This document shows positions 14,374 to 22,573 of a DNA stretch of 64,000 nt, piece after piece. The notes beneath the pieces were generated by a model that was given only the letters and a program-made list of their open reading frames with translations, was not told the origin of the DNA and made no database searches. The stretch is from Shinella sp. PSBB067 (GTDB taxonomy: Bacteria > Pseudomonadota > Alphaproteobacteria > Rhizobiales > Rhizobiaceae): contig NZ_CP069303.1 of NCBI RefSeq assembly GCF_016839145.1, forward strand, positions 3,704,501 to 3,768,500, written 5' to 3'. The translations under genes and the position numbers were made by a program. How positions within the stretch are numbered: the stretch's first letter is position 1; each line of letters opens with the position of its first letter.

Positions 14374-15486
14374 ATGACAGCGCGTACCCTCCTCCTTCTG
14401 CCAGGCGACGGCATCGGCCCGGAAGCCATGGCGGAAGTCCGCAAGATCATCGCCTACATGAACGCCGAGCGCGGCGCGGGTTTTACGACCGACGAAGGCC
14501 TCGTCGGCGGCTCGGCCTATGACGCCCATGGCGCGGCGATCTCGGAAGGCGACATGGAGAAGGCGCTTGCAGCCGACGCCGTGCTGTTCGGTGCCGTCGG
14601 CGGCCCGAAGTGGGATGCCGTTCCTTACGAGGTGCGCCCGGAAGCCGGCCTCCTGCGCCTGCGCAAGGACCTGAAGCTCTTCGCCAACCTGCGCCCGGCC
14701 ATCTGCTACCCGGCGCTTGCCAACGCGTCCTCGCTGAAGCCGGAACTCGTCGAGGGCCTCGACATCCTCATCGTGCGCGAACTGACCGGCGGCGTCTATT
14801 TCGGCGAGCCGAAGGAGATCATCGACCTCGGCAACGGCCAGAAGCGCGGCATCGACACGCAGGTCTACGACACCTACGAGATCGAGCGCATCGCAGGCGT
14901 CGCCTTCGAGCTGGCCCGCACGCGCAATAACCGCGTCTGCTCGATGGAAAAGCGCAACGTCATGAAGTCCGGCGTGCTCTGGAACCAGGTCGTGACGGAA
15001 ACGCACAAGCGCAGCTATTCCGACGTGCAACTCGAGCACATGCTCGCCGATGCCGGCGGCATGCAGCTCGTGCGTGCCCCCAAGCAGTTCGACGTCATCG
15101 TCACGGACAACCTCTTCGGCGACATGCTCTCCGACGTCGCGGCCATGCTGACCGGCTCGCTCGGCATGCTGCCGTCGGCCTCGCTCGGCGCGCCGGACAC
15201 CAAGACCGGCAAGCGCAAGGCCCTCTACGAGCCCGTGCACGGCTCGGCGCCCGATATCGCCGGCAAGGGCATCGCCAACCCGATCGCCATGATCGCCTCC
15301 TTCGCCATGTGCCTGCGCTACTCGTTCAACATGGTCGAGGACGCCGACAACCTGGAAAAGGCCATCGCCGAAGTCCTCGACAGCGGCACCCGCACCGGCG
15401 ACATCATGGCCGAAGGCTGCCGCAAGGTCGGCACCGGCGAAATGGGCGACGCCATCCTCGCCGCCTTCAGGAAGCTCTCGGCCTGA
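14374..15486 (+). CDS. leuB: 3-isopropylmalate dehydrogenase
   Basis: NAD-dependent oxidative decarboxylation of 3-isopropylmalate, third step of leucine synthesis. 370 residues, normal length. Motifs: [90 protein letters not shown]. The ribosome site AAGGAAAA lies just upstream of the ATG. The 97-base gap from the ridA-like gene holds a possible promoter but no clear leader. Confidence 0.97.
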
Positions 15487-15492
15487 GAAAAT

Positions 15493-15609
15493 CCCCCTCA
15501 TCCGACCCTTCGGGCCACCTTCTCCCCAATGGGGAGAAGGAGAAATGCAGCCCCGGCCGTGTTCCCCTTCTCCCCTCGGGGAGGAGGTGCCGGCAGGCGG
15601 ATGAGGGGG
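15493..15609. repeat. RIME-like rhizobial intergenic repeat
   Basis: A 117-base element bounded by perfect 12-base inverted ends, CCCCCTCATCCG (15493) and CGGATGAGGGGG (15598). It contains two internal hairpins built from CCTTCTCCCC/GGGGAGAAGG and CCCCTTCTCCCC/GGGGAGGAGG blocks. This matches the layout of known Rhizobium-specific intergenic mosaic elements. It sits between leuB and its terminator. Confidence 0.75.
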
Positions 15610-15626
15610 CCGATATCCGCTTGAAA

Positions 15627-15659
15627 GGTTCCCGGCGCAGGTGCTCCGGGAGCCTTTTT
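15627..15659 (+). terminator. Terminator downstream of leuB
   Basis: GGTTCCCGG (15627-15635) pairs with CCGGGAGCC (15646-15654) with one G-U pair, followed by TTTTT. Confidence 0.75.
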
Positions 15660-15720
15660 CGTTTGCGTCCCTTGAATTGCCGGCAGCGGCCAGCACATGG
15701 AAGCAACGCCGTATCAAGGG

Positions 15721-16425
15721 ATGACCATGAACCGATCGCTCGCGACCTCCTCGCTCTGGATCCTCGCCGCCACCGCCGTTCTGGTCGTGGCCCTCGTCCC
15801 CTTCGATCCGCTGCTGTCGGAGCGTGCCCGGGGGCTGCCGGGCGCCGTGGTCGCCTTCAACGTGCGCATCACCGATTTCGGCACCTTCCGCTGGATGATC
15901 TACGGCTCCGGTTTCCTCGTCATCCTCGCCTATGTCGTCGGCCGGGCAAGCGCCGACGAGAGCACGGCGGGACGGGCGAGGACCGGCGGGCGGCTGTCGC
16001 TCTACTTCTTCCTGACGATCGGCGCGACGAGCGCGCTCGTCCATCTCGTCAAGCTGATCGTGGGGCGGGCGCGGCCGGAGCTTTTCGGCGAATACGGCGC
16101 CTACAGCCTCACGCCCTTTGCCTATGACGATCTCTATTCCAGCTTTCCCTCCGGCCACTCGGCGGCCGTCGGCGCCTTCTTCGGCGCCTTCTCCATGCTG
16201 GTGCCGCGGCTGCGCCCGCTCTTCCTCCTCGGCGCGCTGGCGATCGGCGTCTCGCGCGTCATCGTCGGCGCGCATTATCCAAGCGACGTGGCTGCCGGCC
16301 TGTTGCTCGGGCTGTGGACCGCGATTGCCACCGCCTATGTCTTCGCGCGCAAGGCGTGGCTCTTCCGCCTGGATGCGCGCGGCTGGCCCCTGCCGAAATC
16401 CCTGCTGCCACCGCCCGCCGAATGA
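15721..16425 (+). CDS. PAP2 superfamily phosphatase, membrane
   Basis: 234 residues from the ATG at 15721; ATGs at 15697 and 15727 are alternatives. Integral membrane phosphatase with the three PAP2 motifs: KLIVGRARPE, SFPSGHSA, and SRVIVGAHYPSDV containing the catalytic His. About six membrane segments. Relatives dephosphorylate undecaprenyl pyrophosphate, phosphatidic acid or lipid A; the substrate cannot be told from sequence. The gene stands alone between the leuB terminator and a bidirectional hairpin. Confidence 0.88.
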   Translation: MTMNRSLATSSLWILAATAVLVVALVPFDPLLSERARGLPGAVVAFNVRITDFGTFRWMIYGSGFLVILAYVVGRASADESTAGRARTGGRLSLYFFLTIGATSALVHLVKLIVGRARPELFGEYGAYSLTPFAYDDLYSSFPSGHSAAVGAFFGAFSMLVPRLRPLFLLGALAIGVSRVIVGAHYPSDVAAGLLLGLWTAIATAYVFARKAWLFRLDARGWPLPKSLLPPPAE

Positions 16426-16428
16426 AAA

Positions 16429-16454
16429 GCCGGCCCGTGTCGCCACGGGCCGGC
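16429..16454. terminator. Hairpin between PAP2 gene and MHS transporter gene
   Basis: Perfect 11-base stem GCCGGCCCGTG / CACGGGCCGGC with a TCGC loop between two convergent genes. It is preceded by AAAA, so it ends in T on the minus strand. Confidence 0.7.
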
Positions 16455-16482
16455 TCGCCATGAATTCATCGGAAGGGGGTGA

Positions 16483-18372
16483 TCAATCCATGGCGTGGAT
16501 GTCGCGGTCCTTCGTTTCCGGCAGGAAGAGAAGGCCGATGACCAGCGTGATGCCCGCGAAGATGATCGGGTACCAGAGGCCGTAGTAGATATCGCCCTTG
16601 GCCGCGCTCATCGCGAAGGCCATTGCCGGCAGCAGGCCGCCGAACCAGCCGTTGCCGATATGGTAGGGCAGCGACATGCCGGTATAGCGGATGCGGGTCG
16701 GGAAGAGCTCGACCAGCAGGGCGGCGATCGGGCCGTAGACCATCGTGACGTAGATCACGAGGACGGTCAGCACGGCGATGGTCATGATCCAGTTCACCTG
16801 CGCCGGATCGGCGACCATGGTGAAGGCGCCGCCCTTGTCGACCGTATAGACCGGCATGTCGGCGGCCCCGGCGGCTTCTTCCGCCGTCAGCAGCTTGCCG
16901 GCAACGAGATCGGCCGAGGACATGGTGGCCTTCTCGCCGCCGCGAACGGCAGCCGCATCGAGGCCGAGTTCCGGGTTGGCCGCGATGAAGGCGTCCAGCT
17001 TGGAGTCCGGGACCTTCGCCGCGCCGCGAACCAGCGGATAGCCGGCATCGTGAAGCGCAATGTTGATGCCCTTGCGGAAGGCCGCCTCGTGCGCCTTGGC
17101 GTCGTCGCCGGAAGCGACGGCGTCGTAGCTGGTGATCGTCTCTTCGCCGATCTTGACCGTCGCGGCCGTCCCGGCCGGCGCCGTGGTGACGACGTCGTAG
17201 GGAACGGAGTTCTGCGTCAGGAACGAAGTGGCGATGTCGCACGAGGTTGTGAATTTCGCCGTGCCGGTCGGGTTGAACTGGAACTTGCAGTCGCCCGGAG
17301 CGGCGGTGACCGTGGCGCGGATCGTCGCCTGGGCCTGGGCCAGTGCCGGGTTGCCGGCCCAGGTCATTGCCTTGAACAGCGGGAAGTAGGTCAGCATGGC
17401 GAGCAGCAGGCCGGCCATGATGATCGGCTTGCGGCCGACCTTGTCGGACAGCCAGCCGAAGAAGACGAAGAAGCCGGAGCCGATGAGCAGCGCGACCGCC
17501 ACCATGATATTGGCGGACTGGCCGTCGACCTTGAGCACGCCCGTCAGGAAGAACAGCGCGTAGAACTGGCCGGAATACCAGACGACGGCCTGGCCGACGA
17601 CGGCGCCGAACAGCGCGAGCAGCGCGATCTTGGCGTTGCGCCACTGGCCGAAGGCTTCCGTCAGCGGTGCCTTGGAGCCCTTGCCCTCTTCCTTCATCTT
17701 CGCGAAGGCGGGCGATTCGTTCATCTTCATGCGGATCCAGACGGAAACGCCGAGCAGGACGACGGACACCAGGAACGGAATGCGCCAGCCCCAGGCGGCG
17801 AAAGCTTCCTTGCCGACGATGAACTGCACCGCGAGGATGACCACCAGCGACAGGAACAGGCCGAGCGTCGCCGTCGTCTGGATCCACGAGGTGAAGTAGC
17901 CGCGCCTGCCGTGCGGGGCGTGCTCGGCGACATAGGTCGCAGCACCGCCGTATTCGCCGCCGAGCGCCAGGCCCTGCAGCATGCGCAGCGCGATCAGGAT
18001 GATCGGCGCGGCGATGCCGATCGTCGCGGCGCCGGGCAGGAGGCCCACGACGAAGGTCGAGAAGCCCATGATCAGGATGGTGACGAGGAAGGTGTACTTG
18101 CGGCCGACGATGTCGCCGAGACGGCCGAACACCAGGGCGCCGAACGGACGCACGAGGAAGCCCGCAGCGAAGGCGAGCAGCGCGAAGATGTTGCGCGTCG
18201 TCTCCGGATACTGGCTGAAGAAGGTCGCGCCGATATAGATCGCCAGCGAACCGTAAAGATAGAAATCGTACCACTCGAAGACGGTGCCGAGCGAAGAGGC
18301 GAAGATCACCTTCTTCTGCTCGCCCGTCATGGGCGCCGCCTTGGCGTTGCCCACGGTCGAAACATTGGCCAT
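16483..18372 (-). CDS. MHS-type MFS transporter with a ~190-residue periplasmic insertion
   Basis: 629 residues; GGAGGA lies 7 bases before the ATG. Metabolite:H+ symporter branch of the MFS (ProP/ShiA/KgtP relatives): SSLGTVFEWYDFYLYGSLA, RPFGALVFGRLGD, RMLQGLALGGEYGGAA, VELFPTRIRYTGMSLPYHIG, FLPETKDRDIHAMD. Twelve membrane helices are predictable. Between helix 9 (about 316-334) and helix 10 (about 527-550) lies a soluble insertion of about 190 residues with two cysteines (362 and 378), predicted periplasmic. Usual family length is 430-450. The substrate is unknown. Confidence 0.88.
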   Translation of the reverse strand: MANVSTVGNAKAAPMTGEQKKVIFASSLGTVFEWYDFYLYGSLAIYIGATFFSQYPETTRNIFALLAFAAGFLVRPFGALVFGRLGDIVGRKYTFLVTILIMGFSTFVVGLLPGAATIGIAAPIILIALRMLQGLALGGEYGGAATYVAEHAPHGRRGYFTSWIQTTATLGLFLSLVVILAVQFIVGKEAFAAWGWRIPFLVSVVLLGVSVWIRMKMNESPAFAKMKEEGKGSKAPLTEAFGQWRNAKIALLALFGAVVGQAVVWYSGQFYALFFLTGVLKVDGQSANIMVAVALLIGSGFFVFFGWLSDKVGRKPIIMAGLLLAMLTYFPLFKAMTWAGNPALAQAQATIRATVTAAPGDCKFQFNPTGTAKFTTSCDIATSFLTQNSVPYDVVTTAPAGTAATVKIGEETITSYDAVASGDDAKAHEAAFRKGINIALHDAGYPLVRGAAKVPDSKLDAFIAANPELGLDAAAVRGGEKATMSSADLVAGKLLTAEEAAGAADMPVYTVDKGGAFTMVADPAQVNWIMTIAVLTVLVIYVTMVYGPIAALLVELFPTRIRYTGMSLPYHIGNGWFGGLLPAMAFAMSAAKGDIYYGLWYPIIFAGITLVIGLLFLPETKDRDIHAMD

Positions 18373-18584
18373 TTGTTTGTCCTCCACAAAAACGGCGTAT
18401 CGGGGCAGCCCGTATGCGGTCCGGTGTTTCTCCCTAAAAACGCCGGGCAGGGTGCGCCTGATGAAAGGATGGCAGAAAACCAATTGTCATATCAGCGCTG
18501 CTTTGGGCTTATGACTTTCGGTGTACGACTTAAGTCGCGAATGCGGGGCAGCGGCCGTGAAACGCCCGATCGGCCACGGAACGC

Positions 18585-18612
18585 TTGACTCTTGGCCAGA
18601 TGAGCGTATTCA
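18585..18612 (+). promoter_or_regulatory. Candidate promoter for the asd leader
   Basis: TTGACT (18585-18590), 16-base spacer, TATTCA (18607-18612). Predicted transcription would start near 18619, placing the leader ORF start about 16 bases into the RNA. Confidence 0.55.
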
Positions 18613-18634
18613 GCACGCACGCAAGGGAACCGCC

Positions 18635-18754
18635 ATGTATCGCTTTGGGATCGCCATCGCCCGCATGATCGCTCCGGCCTTCAACGCCGGACGGGTTCGC
18701 CATTGCGTGTCCATTTCCAAAACAACGGCCAAAACGACGACGAAAACCGTCTGA
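18635..18754 (+). CDS. Putative 39-residue Thr/Lys-rich leader peptide upstream of asd
   Basis: A short ORF starting ATG with AAGGGAA 6 bases upstream. Its last eleven codons read KTTAKTTTKTV: six threonines and three lysines, the lysines all AAA. It lies between a good promoter and a terminator-like hairpin, directly ahead of asd, whose product feeds threonine, lysine and methionine synthesis. By analogy with the threonine-operon leader of enterobacteria it may sense charged tRNA-Thr and tRNA-Lys. It could instead be a chance ORF. Confidence 0.5.
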   Translation: MYRFGIAIARMIAPAFNAGRVRHCVSISKTTAKTTTKTV

Positions 18755-18776
18755 CGTCTCTGGCCCACCGCTCTCT

Positions 18777-18838
18777 CCCCGGTATGGCCGGGGACCGAAA
18801 CCCGCGTCACGGCCGGCGGGTTTTACCTCCTGACCCGC
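18777..18838 (+). promoter_or_regulatory. Possible transcription attenuator of asd
   Basis: Three elements follow the leader stop. First, hairpin CCCCGG-TATGG-CCGGGG (18777-18793). Second, terminator-like hairpin AAACCCGC (18798-18805) with GCGGGTTT (18816-18823), followed by T at 18824. Third, another ACCCGC at 18833-18838 that can pair with GCGGGT (18816-18821) and so competes with the terminator. The presence of mutually exclusive stems is seen in the sequence; the regulatory role is inference. Confidence 0.5.
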
Positions 18839-18866
18839 GGAGAGACAGAGAAAGAGAGCTTTAGAC

Positions 18867-19901
18867 ATGGGTTTCAAGATCGCAGTCGCCGGCGCGACCG
18901 GCAATGTCGGCCGCGAGATGCTGAACATCCTTTCCGAGCGCGGCTTCCCGGCCGATGAGGTCGTGGCGCTCGCCTCCGCCCGCTCGCAGGGCACCGAAGT
19001 CTCCTTCGGCGACAGGACGCTGAAGGTGCAGAACCTCGAGAACTACGATTTCTCCGACACCGACATCTGCCTGATGTCGGCCGGCGGCACGGTTTCGCAG
19101 AAGTATTCGCCGAAGATCGGCGCGCAGGGCTGCGTGGTCATCGACAACTCCTCGGCCTGGCGCTACGACGCCGACGTGCCGCTGATCGTTCCGGAAGTGA
19201 ACCCGGACGCCATCACCCAGTTCACCCGCAAGAACATCATCGCCAACCCGAATTGCTCGACCGCCCAGCTCGTCGTCGCGCTGAAGCCGCTGCATGACCG
19301 CGCCACCATCAAGCGCGTCGTCGTCTCGACCTACCAGTCCGTCTCGGGCGCCGGCAAGGACGGCATGGACGAGCTCTTCAACCAGACCCGCGCCGTCTTC
19401 GTCGCCGACCCGATCGAATCGAAGAAGTTCACCAAGCGCATCGCCTTCAACGTCATCCCGCACATCGACAGCTTCATGGAAGACGGCTACACGAAGGAAG
19501 AGTGGAAGGTTCTCGCCGAGACCAAGAAGATGCTCGACCCGAAGATCAAGGTGACCTGCACGGCCGTGCGCGTCCCGGTCTTCATCGGCCATTCCGAATC
19601 GGTCAACATCGAGTTCGAGAAGGAAATCACCGCCGACGAGGCCCGCGAAATCCTGCGCGAGGCGCCGGGTTGCCAGGTCATCGACAAGCACGAGAACGGC
19701 GGCTACATCACCCCGTATGAATCGGCCGGCGAGGACGCCACCTACATCTCGCGCATCCGCGAGGACGCCACCGTCGAGAACGGCCTCAACATATGGGTCG
19801 TCTCCGACAACCTGCGCAAGGGCGCGGCGCTCAACGCCATCCAGATCGCGGAGCTGCTGGTCGCCCGCGGCCTGATCAAGGCGAAGAAGCAGGCCGCCTG
19901 A
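18867..19901 (+). CDS. asd: Aspartate-semialdehyde dehydrogenase
   Basis: NADPH-dependent reduction of aspartyl phosphate to aspartate semialdehyde, the branch point toward lysine/diaminopimelate, threonine and methionine. 344 residues. Motifs: KIAVAGATGNVGREML, SAGGTVSQKYSP, VIDNSSAWRYDADVP, VPEVNPDAI, the catalytic cysteine in NPNCSTAQ (Cys130), and VPVFIGHSESVNIE with a His of the substrate site. GAGAGACAGAGAAAGAGAG forms a purine-rich ribosome site region upstream. It is preceded by the leader ORF and hairpins described separately. Confidence 0.97.
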   Translation: MGFKIAVAGATGNVGREMLNILSERGFPADEVVALASARSQGTEVSFGDRTLKVQNLENYDFSDTDICLMSAGGTVSQKYSPKIGAQGCVVIDNSSAWRYDADVPLIVPEVNPDAITQFTRKNIIANPNCSTAQLVVALKPLHDRATIKRVVVSTYQSVSGAGKDGMDELFNQTRAVFVADPIESKKFTKRIAFNVIPHIDSFMEDGYTKEEWKVLAETKKMLDPKIKVTCTAVRVPVFIGHSESVNIEFEKEITADEAREILREAPGCQVIDKHENGGYITPYESAGEDATYISRIREDATVENGLNIWVVSDNLRKGAALNAIQIAELLVARGLIKAKKQAA

Positions 19902-19959
19902 CTGGAAACTGCATTTCGGTAAAAATGGCAACGTTCCGTTAACAGGTTATAAATAAAAG

Positions 19960-19998
19960 TCCCGGTTGTCCCGTCCAAGGGCAATCGGGATTTCGTTT
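19960..19998 (+). terminator. Terminator downstream of asd
   Basis: An imperfect stem of about 12 bases, TCCCGGTTGTCCC (19960-19972) with GGGCAATCGGGA (19979-19990), followed by TTTCGTTTT. Confidence 0.75.
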
Positions 19999-20086
19999 TG
20001 GACGATTTCACGGCAAGGTGCGGTGACAGCAAAAGGGGAGCATGCCATGCTCCCGCAGCGGAATTGACGAGATCACGGGGTTTTTC

Positions 20087-20908
20087 ATGGGCATGACAAA
20101 GAGCGTGGCCAGGGTTCTGGCCGCAATGATCGCCACGGCGGCGCTGCCGGCGGCGGCCGAGGCTGCCAGGTGCGGCAACGATGCGAGCGGTTTCCCGGCC
20201 TGGGTCGAGGCCTTCAAGGGTGAGGCGGCCGCGCGCGGCATCAGCCGCGCGACGCTGGACAAGGCCTTCGCCAATGTCGGCTACGCCCGCGCCACGATCC
20301 GCGCCGACCGCGGCCAGAAGAGCTTCAAGCTCTCGCTCGAACAGTTCATGCAGAAGCGCGGCGGCCAGGCGATCATCCGCCGTGGCAAGAGCCTGAAGCA
20401 GCAGAACGCCGCCCTCTTCAACCGCATCGAGGCGCGCTATGGCGTGCCGGCCGGCCCGCTGCTGGCGATCTGGGGCATGGAAACCGGCTTCGGCGGCTTC
20501 CTCGGCAAGGAGCACACGCTCTCGGCCGTCGCGACGCTCGCCTATGACTGCCGCCGCCCGGAATATTTCACCAACCAGCTCTATGCCGCCCTGCAACTCG
20601 TGCAGAACGGCACGCTGAGCACGACGGCACGCGGCGCGGCGCATGGCGAAATCGGCCAGACGCAGTTCCTGCCGGCGAACGTGCTGAAATACGGCGTCGA
20701 CGGCGACGGCAACGGCCGCATCGACCTCGTCGGCTCGAAGGCCGACGCGCTCGCCTCGACGGCGAACTTCCTGCGCGGCCACGGCTGGAGCGCCGGTGCG
20801 GGCTACCAGCCCGGCCAGTCGAACTTCGGCGCCCTGCAGGGCTGGAACGCCGCCAGCGTCTACCAGCGCGCCATCGCCATCATCGGTGCGGAAATCGACG
20901 GCAACTGA
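20087..20908 (+). CDS. Lytic murein transglycosylase, MltB/SLT_2 type
   Basis: 273 residues from the ATG at 20087; 20042 would add residues ahead of the signal peptide. Signal peptide about 1-27 (MGMTKSVARVLAAMIATAAL then PAAAEAA). SLT_2 lytic transglycosylase fold: FPAWVEAFKGEAAARGIS, RADRGQKSFKL, and AIWGMETGFGGFLG with catalytic Glu132, then GEIGQTQFLPANVLKYG and FLRGHGWSAGAGYQPG. No peptidoglycan-binding domain is attached. It cleaves glycan strands to 1,6-anhydro ends in the periplasm. It ends at a strong bidirectional terminator. Confidence 0.9.
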   Translation: MGMTKSVARVLAAMIATAALPAAAEAARCGNDASGFPAWVEAFKGEAAARGISRATLDKAFANVGYARATIRADRGQKSFKLSLEQFMQKRGGQAIIRRGKSLKQQNAALFNRIEARYGVPAGPLLAIWGMETGFGGFLGKEHTLSAVATLAYDCRRPEYFTNQLYAALQLVQNGTLSTTARGAAHGEIGQTQFLPANVLKYGVDGDGNGRIDLVGSKADALASTANFLRGHGWSAGAGYQPGQSNFGALQGWNAASVYQRAIAIIGAEIDGN

Positions 20909-20928
20909 GCCGGCATCCACGGCATTCG

Positions 20929-20958
20929 AAAGCCGGCGCGGGAAACCGCGCCGGCTTT
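20929..20958. terminator. Bidirectional terminator, transglycosylase / carbonic anhydrase
   Basis: Perfect 13-14-base stem AAAGCCGGCGCGG / CCGCGCCGGCTTT with an AAA loop between convergent genes. Confidence 0.88.
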
Positions 20959-20961
20959 CTG

Positions 20962-21603
20962 TCATGCACTCGGTCGTTTGAAGTCGCCCGTGGCGCCGTC
21001 CATGATCCAGAGCTCGCCGGTCGAGATGTCGAACCAGGCGCCGTGGAGCTGGAGACGCCCCTTCTCTTCGAGGATGCGAACGCAGGGGAACGTCCGCAGA
21101 TTGGCAAGCGAATTGCGGATCGAGACGCGCTCCAGCGCGCGCTGGCGCTCGGCCTGGGTCAGCATTTCGGCACCCTGGATCTGTTCGGCGACAGGCTTGA
21201 GCATGCCCATCCATTTGCCGATGAAATCGCCGGGCGAGAGCGGCTCCGCATCCGGGTCGAGCGCGGCGGAAATGCCGCCGCAGCGGCCATGGCCCATCAC
21301 GAGGATGTCGCTGACCTTCAGCGACTGCACGGCGAATTCGAGCGCGGCGGAGGTGGCGTGGAACTGGCCGTCCGGCTCGTAGGGCGGCACGAGGTTCGCC
21401 ACGTTGCGCACGACGAAGAGCTCGCCCGGCCCGCTGTCGAAGATCGTCTCCGGCGCGGCCCGCGAGTCACAACAGGCGATCACGAGCGTCTTGGGTTTCT
21501 GCCCGGTCTCGGCCAGCGCCCTGTAGCGCGCCGACTGTTCGGCATAGCGCCCGGACATGAAGTTGCGGTAGCCATTCAGAAGACGATCGGGAAAGCGGTT
21601 CAT
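20962..21603 (-). CDS. Beta-class carbonic anhydrase
   Basis: Zinc enzyme interconverting CO2 and bicarbonate. 213 residues. Zinc ligands and active site: VIACCDSRAAPETIF (Cys and the Asp-Arg dyad) and MGHGRCGGISAAL (His and Cys). FVVRNVANLVPPYE and HATSAALEFAVQSL are also family signatures. The C-terminus (GAWFDISTGELWIMD) is the usual end of this group. No signal peptide. It probably supplies bicarbonate to carboxylases in ambient air. It stands alone and converges with the transglycosylase gene. Confidence 0.95.
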   Translation of the reverse strand: MNRFPDRLLNGYRNFMSGRYAEQSARYRALAETGQKPKTLVIACCDSRAAPETIFDSGPGELFVVRNVANLVPPYEPDGQFHATSAALEFAVQSLKVSDILVMGHGRCGGISAALDPDAEPLSPGDFIGKWMGMLKPVAEQIQGAEMLTQAERQRALERVSIRNSLANLRTFPCVRILEEKGRLQLHGAWFDISTGELWIMDGATGDFKRPSA

Positions 21604-21697
21604 GGTGTCGGAATACCCCGTGCGAGCGATCTACCGGATGAGGCCCCATCCGGATGTGCATAAACCACTCCGAAGCATGCGGCGCAAGACCGGATGT

Positions 21698-22573
21698 TCA
21701 GGGACGGCGGGTCTGCGCCGGGTGCACGAGGCGGCGCATGTGCACCATGGCCATGGGCGTCGCGATGCTGGAAGCGTCCTGCTCCAGCGTCAGCTCGTCG
21801 GCACCGCGCTTGGCCGTGCGCGCGACGATCTCGAAGACGCTGGCCGTCGCCGTCATCAGGGCCCGCTCCTCCGGCAGGCCCTCCATCAGGCGTGACAGGA
21901 AGATCGCCGACAGGAGGTCTCCGGTTCCGTTCGGCGGGTTGGGCACGAGCCGGTGTTCGGCCAGGAGCGCGTGGCGCCCGGAGAGATAGAGATTGCCCGT
22001 GCTGCCGGCCATCAGCGCCAGCGAGGACGTGACGAGCATGCGCGAGGGACCGAGCGAGAGCGCCGCGTCCATGATCGCCGCATTGGTCTCGAGCGGCGCG
22101 CCGGCAAGCCAGGCAAGCTCGAACCGGTTCGGCGTCGCGACGGAGGCGAGCGGGATCAGGCAGTCGCGGATCGCCACCGCCGTTTCTTCCGGCACGTAGA
22201 GGCCGCGATCGTCGCCGCAGACCGGATCGCACATATAAAGAAGGTCCGGATTGTCCGCCCGCAGGCTTTCGACAAGCCGCGCGACGGAGCGGGCCTGCGC
22301 GGCGCTGCCGAGATAGCCCGACAGCACCGCCTTCACCTCGCCGCGCCAGGGCGCGCGGATGAGGTCGGAGATGATCGCGTCGAAATCCTCCGCGGATATG
22401 GCGACGCGCGTGGCGCGGCCGTGGCCGGGATGCCAGGGCAGGATGACGGTCGGCAGCGCCCAGACCGGATGGCCGAGCGTCTCGAGCGCGAAGACGGCGG
22501 CCCGGTTGCCGACCGTGCCCCGCACCACATGGCTCGAAATCACGATGACGGTGCCCTTGTCGCTCTCGTTCAT
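21698..22573 (-). CDS. pdxY: Pyridoxal kinase
   Basis: Vitamin B6 salvage: ATP-dependent phosphorylation of pyridoxal to PLP. 291 residues from the ATG at 22573, with GGGAG upstream. Ribokinase-like PdxK/PdxY fold: VIVISSHVVRGTVGNRAAVF, VWALPTVILPWHPGHG, LSGYLGSAAQ, CDPVCGDDRGLYV, TPNRFELAWL, and the anion hole PNPPNGTGDLLSAIF. It is transcribed away from the glutamate dehydrogenase gene. Confidence 0.93.
   Translation of the reverse strand: MNESDKGTVIVISSHVVRGTVGNRAAVFALETLGHPVWALPTVILPWHPGHGRATRVAISAEDFDAIISDLIRAPWRGEVKAVLSGYLGSAAQARSVARLVESLRADNPDLLYMCDPVCGDDRGLYVPEETAVAIRDCLIPLASVATPNRFELAWLAGAPLETNAAIMDAALSLGPSRMLVTSSLALMAGSTGNLYLSGRHALLAEHRLVPNPPNGTGDLLSAIFLSRLMEGLPEERALMTATASVFEIVARTAKRGADELTLEQDASSIATPMAMVHMRRLVHPAQTRRP

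Follow-up and report, generated by a model that had tools for sequence, protein, structure and literature searches.

Conserved leader upstream of asd in Shinella and other Rhizobiales that probably senses threonine and lysine shortage without the usual transcription stop signal

Classical attenuators such as those of trp, thr and ilvIH have leader codons for the sensed amino acids and an element 2 that starts beside the leader stop codon. In translational attenuators of the ermC type, the position of a ribosome on the leader selects the structures that close or open a downstream start. Examples of the classical type in the available text of two papers are ilvL/ilvIH of Caulobacter (PMC4117421) and trpL of Sinorhizobium meliloti (PMC10117765). 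For the actinobacterial LEU element that precedes leuA, the accessible part of the 2005 report (PMC1262725) cites mutational evidence at odds with classical attenuation. The asd RNA motif RF01732 is assigned to Lactobacillales in the available text of PMC2864571. In S. meliloti, SEP5 was reported to be translated based on Ribo-seq and Western blotting (Microlife 2023; PMC10117765). According to the accessible part of that paper, SEP5 has six Thr codons and three Lys codons close to its 3' end, is located in the 5' UTR of a gene named there aspartate dehydrogenase, is conserved in Sinorhizobium only and is "possibly a leader peptide". No RNA structure or mechanism is given in the same text, whereas coevolving pairings in many families are described here. 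A first-pass annotation of the DNA analyzed here knew of no described asd attenuator in rhizobia, which is not entirely correct: a leader peptide, with no mechanism, was suggested there in 2023. Neither the broad distribution of the asd leader nor its RNA architecture was found in the open-licence literature, and the available portions of PMC1273637, PMC2245857, PMC2864571 and PMC4239095 do not mention such an element in rhizobia.

The window, the whole 64,000-nt stretch of Shinella sp. PSBB067 DNA that was analyzed, contains the leader and asd with their associated elements (Table 1). The parts were located where the first-pass annotation had placed them, with small corrections. The closest named match to Asd was that of Shinella zoogloeoides with 99% identity. 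Structured RNA of ∼110 nt lies between the leader ORF and asd (fold z of -1.70 versus shuffles for 18700-18866), with element 1 beginning one base past the leader stop codon. At least seven Thr or Lys residues in the last 12 codons were found in only one of the 1475 ORF ends (732 + 743) in the six frames of the window, which is that of the leader ORF.

Table 1. Features of the asd leader region, in positions of the window.
Feature	Position	Strand	Remarks
Promoter-like site TTGACT-16-TATTCA	18585..18612	+	TTGACT 18585-18590, 16-nt spacer, TATTCA 18607-18612
Shine-Dalgarno-like AAGGGA of leader ORF	18623..18628	+	Many relatives have a similar purine box ahead of the leader ATG
Leader ORF, 39 codons	18635..18754	+	ATG 18635, TGA 18752-18754; homologue SEP5 reported translated
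Control codons KTTAKTTTKTV (6 Thr, 3 Lys; last eleven codons)	18719..18751	+
Element 1, 5' strand of hairpin S1	18756..18770	+	GTCTCTGGCC 18756-18765, ACCG 18767-18770
A, TCTCTCC	18772..18778	+	Within S1 apical loop 18771-18779
B, 3' strand of S1	18780..18795	+	CGGT 18780-18783, GGCCGGGGAC 18786-18795
Rival hairpin A:B (P2), GC hairpin	CCCCGG 18777-18782 / CCGGGG 18788-18793	+
Variable hairpin P3	18798..18823	+	AAACCCGC 18798-18805 / GCGGGTTT 18816-18823; "terminator" of the first-pass annotation
Third ACCCGC	18833-18838	+
D, GGAGAGA	18839..18845	+	Partner of A; 28-22 nt before asd start
AGAGAGC	18853..18859	+	14-8 nt before asd; can pair with GCTCTCT 18770-18776 in predicted fold
asd, aspartate-semialdehyde dehydrogenase, 344 codons	18867..19901	+	ATG 18867; orthologue so annotated in CP090106.1
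Divergent ORF upstream of leader	16483-18483	-	MHS transporter, as named in the first-pass annotation

Conservation of the leader was evaluated in regions upstream of asd from 282 loci, comprised of 80 named records and 202 loci drawn from the genus, family and order; the set includes the window's own copy, and a few loci were entered twice. A leader was scored where at least six of the last 12 codons were Thr or Lys in an ORF whose end lies 60-260 nt upstream of asd. Such ends were found at 232 of the 282 loci and in 4 of 1410 dinucleotide shuffles. The nearest set had the Thr/Lys end at all of its 101 loci, so that the small ORF and its codons are conserved in close relatives. The next set, drawn mostly from the family of the window with five loci from its order, had it at 92 of 116 loci, and the order set at 39 of 65. 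The families of the order that were sampled numbered 36, in 21 of which at least one locus had the leader, while two reached a score of five and 13 had none. A score below five was obtained for 42 loci, and among the 24 of these inspected eight have very short ORFs of Thr, Lys and Ile codons (L174, L195, L207, L208, L213, L215, L220 and L229), an example being MSARSLIKTTT in L213. In other orders of the class, the Thr/Lys end was present at three (L287, L308 and L309) of the 28 best-matching loci, taken from 64 genomes with a match, the window's own genome and one of its order among them. The proposal of a Thr/Lys leader ORF before asd is supported, as is its conservation, and the S. meliloti homologue is reported to be translated.

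The Thr/Lys end is kept among the relatives, and the N-terminus of the leader peptide is poorly conserved. In 126 sequences picked by the pattern of the end, codon -9 was Lys in 52, Thr in 50, Met in 16 and another residue in 8; Ile was found at -10 (10 sequences), -4 (6) and -2 (3). Lys, Thr, Met and Ile all derive from the product of Asd. The replacements among control codons are suggestive of sensing of the aspartate family, and no more than suggestive since changes from Thr to Ile or Met are easy C-to-T transitions. A small hairpin within the control codons (18728-18751 in the window, and in relatives) was also observed to coevolve (GACG..CGTC, GACC..GGTC and CACC..GGTG; z of 4.05 in the swap test described below), and perhaps competes with element 1. 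For homoserine dehydrogenase, a hom-like ORF was located in seven of 13 loci (L313, L314, L316, L318, L319, L320 and L325), and in these seven no ORF end with six Thr, Lys, Ile or Met in 12 codons was found.

In S. meliloti CP090106.1, RKTTAKTTTKTV is found upstream of the gene annotated as aspartate-semialdehyde dehydrogenase. This leader is identified as SEP5 from the description in the paper and not from a coordinate. The leader ORF of the window, likewise in the asd 5' UTR, carries six Thr and three Lys codons at its 3' end, and the sequence comparisons place leaders of the SEP5 type far beyond Sinorhizobium. Annotation of CP090106.1 gives this leader 57 codons from a TTG start, in an ORF overlapping a TTGAC box (L334, 267-437); translation more likely begins at the ATG that would make it 39 codons long. 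The CP090106.1 record is titled pSymB, yet is 3.7 Mb and carries asd; mislabelling is possible. A separate function for the encoded small protein, the RNA being incidental, is highly improbable. Accumulation of tagged SEP5 in the soluble fraction of S. meliloti, as stated in the available text of PMC10117765, speaks for such a protein, but the N-terminus and length vary where the Thr/Lys end and the junction of the stop codon with S1 are kept, some leaders have just 10-13 residues, and the RNA pairings coevolve.

At the promoter-like site, a TTGAC box was present 278-293 nt upstream of asd in all 24 sequences compared, including that of the window. They differ in the -10 part, and a strict promoter scan of 18370-18900 gave no promoter. 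GTG 18707 was considered as the start of a shorter leader and rejected as a conserved start, since the codon is GTA in the 12 other Shinella-type sequences compared. In L207, L208, L213, L215, L220 and L229, leaders of 11-12 codons in the last 170 nt before asd nearly abut a TTGACA box and may be translated without a 5' leader.

The first-pass annotation had also proposed a classical transcription attenuator, with P3 as the intrinsic terminator. The + strand of 18370-18900 showed no terminator-like site in the scan, and at least six T in 8 nt between stop+33 and asd were found in only three of 80 representative sequences and four of the 228 distinct sequences; in the 150 nt that follow asd, which make up a longer stretch, 27 of 78 had such a T-rich window. 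P3 is variable, and most relatives inspected either lack it or have no T-run after it. These results argue against a conserved intrinsic terminator and make the classical attenuator very unlikely, in spite of the TTTT at P3 in the window and of L161, which has GCTTTGTTTT after an A:B hairpin. Of the four T at 18821-18824, three fall inside the P3 stem. The same arrangement of A:B hairpin and GCTTTGTTTT lies between the leader stop and asd of L243, and the family to which L161 and L243 belong may, from this sequence, use an intrinsic terminator. Pairing of the third ACCCGC with the 3' arm of P3, likewise proposed, was recognized by eye in Shinella and a few near relatives (L011, L023 and L024) and was not found in the Rhizobium, Sinorhizobium and Agrobacterium sequences inspected. 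Directly 3' of asd, 19958-19999 of the window has a hairpin followed by a T-rich stretch, like an ordinary terminator and unlike the leader.

Structure following the leader stop codon was analyzed in 80 representatives of the 228 distinct sequences, chosen to be less than 80% similar to one another after the stop. Recurring elements are element 1 (∼stop+4 to +20), a CUCUCC-like A, a G-rich B and, at ∼-40 to -15 of asd, a GGAGAG-like D. Elements 1 and B form hairpin S1 with A in the apical loop, the sequence of which is CUCUCUCC; in the window S1 is GUCUCUGGCC-C-ACCG(CUCUCUCCC)CGGU-AU-GGCCGGGGAC. Pairings 1:B and A:B share B and are mutually exclusive, S1 starts close enough to the leader stop to be reached by a ribosome positioned there, and local folding favoured 1:B over A:B in 40 of the 80 representatives. 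Compensating changes in A:D were found as CGCTTCCC:GGGAAGCG (L132), CGCTCTTTCC:GGAAAGGGCG (L249), ATGCTCTCCCG:TGGGAGAGCAT (L156) and CGTTTTGCTCTC:GAGAGCAAGACG (L233).

Coevolution was evaluated by a swap test in which partners were exchanged between sequences and the pairing score of own partners compared with that of swapped ones. With the first windows chosen for the elements, z was 5.44 for A x D, 4.81 for 1 x B, 4.66 for A x B, 2.27 for codons x 1 and 2.56 for codons x B, a control. With later windows, picked when these results had already been seen, A x D scored 19.96 for own and 17.69 for swapped partners (z 7.28), with z of 6.95 for A x B and 4.58 for 1 x B over the 80 representatives; the controls gave -0.36 (codons x D), 0.44 (1 x D) and 1.30 (codons x B). 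The 26 sequences of the GGCC type gave 6.12 for A x D, 3.81 for A x B and 3.18 for 1 x B, and the other 54 gave 5.03, 5.77 and just 1.97, respectively. Among the stems upstream of asd, for which the first-pass annotation had suggested a test of covariation, 1:B, A:B and A:D coevolve. A swap test with duplex energies gave nothing clear, the energies probably being dominated by GC content, and column covariation over 161 aligned sequences was dominated by a split into two groups.

The energy of S1 together with loop:D stacking was no less favourable than that of 95% of 100 shuffles in 44 of the 80 representatives, where approximately four are expected; S1 alone passed in 21 and loop:D alone in 34. 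This support reaches 15 families besides the window's own. When stop+3 to +12 was masked in the manner of a terminating ribosome, rearrangement of the remaining RNA amounted to 12.4 pair units versus 9.3 in shuffles (KS p 6e-8), an effect seen individually in 17 of the 80. The three helices are compatible with a candidate H-type pseudoknot of S1 and A:D. In a 25-row alignment (A1), 81.1% of cells were paired compared with 77.6% when shuffled, and the covariation score was greater than that of all 500 shuffles; pairs with changes on both sides were not above chance in this alignment (4 versus 3.4).

A covariance model of S1 (R1) was built from 25 sequences. Its 15 matches outside the window at E ≤ 0.05 include 11 in which the first position of R1 coincides with the leader stop, and among these L134 is a seed sequence; the remaining four were in L259, L109 (twice) and L213. 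Up to E of 10 there were 45 matches outside the window, 22 of them at the leader stop. Beyond the window's own family, only L253 and L149 matched at E ≤ 0.05. A scan of the whole genome returned the asd site at 1.4e-14 and the next at 0.14, with no second strong copy. Rfam gave 14 matches in 15000-22000 (E up to 5), all of them outside 16461-19831. Neither RF01732 nor the Thr leader (RF00506) gave a covariance model match at the leader with this cutoff. Vitreschak et al. 2004 is not known to describe an asd attenuator. Elsewhere in the window, sub-threshold Rfam matches cluster between two genes at 15495-15666 (ctRNA_p42d with 32.2 bits versus a threshold of 50, and microRNA families); this is perhaps a palindromic intergenic repeat.

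Clustered codons for pathway products and mutually exclusive structures, which characterize a ribosome-dependent attenuator of any output, are both recognizable in the sequences. The reading that we favour, with moderate confidence, is a cis-acting ribosome-dependent attenuator of asd that functions without an intrinsic terminator, most likely on initiation of translation; the leader would probably sense Thr/Lys shortage without the usual transcription stop signal. We infer the output level from the lack of a conserved intrinsic terminator and the direction from the supply of the sensed amino acids by asd, since stalling should then raise asd and S1 is taken to be the ON state. When charged Thr- or Lys-tRNA is low (perhaps also that for Ile or Met), a ribosome would stall in the control codons, S1 would fold during transcription with A held in the loop (perhaps in a pseudoknot with D), and the start region of asd would remain open. 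With ample supply, a ribosome at the stop codon would cover ∼12 nt and block S1, leaving A available to pair with B, and with D or the purine-rich start region of asd. In the window, the freed GCTCTCT would pair with AGAGAGC, lowering translation of asd (OFF); folding with S1 blocked predicted this pairing of A with 18853-18859. Points against the favoured attenuator are the low 1 x B score outside the GGCC type, the control at 2.56 with the first windows, the two R1 matches only beyond the window's own family and the 13 families in which the leader was not seen. The mechanism is directly testable in S. meliloti, since the leader there is already reported to be translated. Narrowing this attenuator to an order-wide, terminator-free H-type pseudoknot, in which 1:B and A:D oppose A:B and the place of the ribosome gates the asd start so as to pool Thr, Lys, Ile and Met supply in a single signal at the shared branch point of the aspartate family, is put forward tentatively and may well prove wrong.

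An unlikely alternative, although one to be taken seriously, retains the same sensing with Rho-dependent transcription termination in the untranslated RNA that separates the leader from asd, S1 or A:D altering access of Rho or RNA polymerase. The long untranslated leader, the pyrimidine-rich A and the lack of a conserved T-run are consistent with Rho, which was proposed for terminator-less leaders of actinobacterial cys operons according to the available text of PMC1262725. However, D is the best coevolving partner of A and adjoins the asd start, a site that termination does not need.

Nested folding, which takes no account of pseudoknots or folding during transcription, gave an asd start that is harder to open with a stalled ribosome than with one at the stop codon in 55 of the 80 representatives and easier in 16. 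This is the wrong sign for a start that is ON when the ribosome stalls and counts against the proposed direction. The greater openness with the ribosome at the stop is expected of an attenuator of opposite sign, in which the pseudoknot of S1 and A:D represents OFF and is opened by a ribosome finishing the leader, so that translation of asd is coupled to completion of the leader. A:B hides A and frees D, and the D pairing of L161 abuts the Shine-Dalgarno (SD) sequence, as this arrangement would also have it. Asd would then be off in Thr/Lys shortage, which from knowledge of the pathway is hard to square with a Thr/Lys run before the gene that supplies these amino acids, and the opposite sign is considered quite improbable.

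Sequestration of the SD was considered for several partners and found no support across the order. For element 1 the z was -0.24, and 1b was barely coevolving with the SD (1.87). For the region with S1 blocked, the opening cost of the SD was 4.44 kcal and not above the 4.33 kcal of shuffles, counting nested folds only; it was weakly higher than the 3.98 of the S1 state (p 0.11). With S1 blocked, A:B outweighed A:D plus A:SD in 49 of the 80 representatives, pseudoknots being outside the model. For the direction proposed above, these outcomes are equivocal or adverse.

The element is real and widely conserved, and its peptide had been noted before in one genus. If the favoured attenuator is correct, one RNA switch would read several amino acids for a branch-point enzyme in much of the order. 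The asd RNA motif RF01732 shares with the leader that it is a structured RNA tied to asd by name, and differs in coming from another phylum and in having no match here. Translational attenuators of the ermC type respond to an antibiotic whereas the asd leader would respond to amino acid supply; SD sequestration is predicted in the window but not supported across the order. Classical attenuators likewise have leader codons and structure beside the stop, while the asd leader has no conserved terminator and has a distal partner, D, beside the start. The logic of the trp and thr leader peptides would, if the reading holds, be tied here to structure beside the start codon and not to a terminator. 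The nearest described architecture is the LEU element, which in the available text of PMC1262725 has a leader of product codons, a pseudoknot, an alternative hairpin, no obvious terminator and a biosynthetic gene downstream, a layout that the asd leader resembles with its candidate pseudoknot. The LEU element belongs to another phylum, with a different gene and sequence, and according to the same text its base stem is formed between the leucine codons and the leuA SD, whereas codons x SD in the asd leader gave 9.00 for own and 9.15 for swapped partners (z -0.80).
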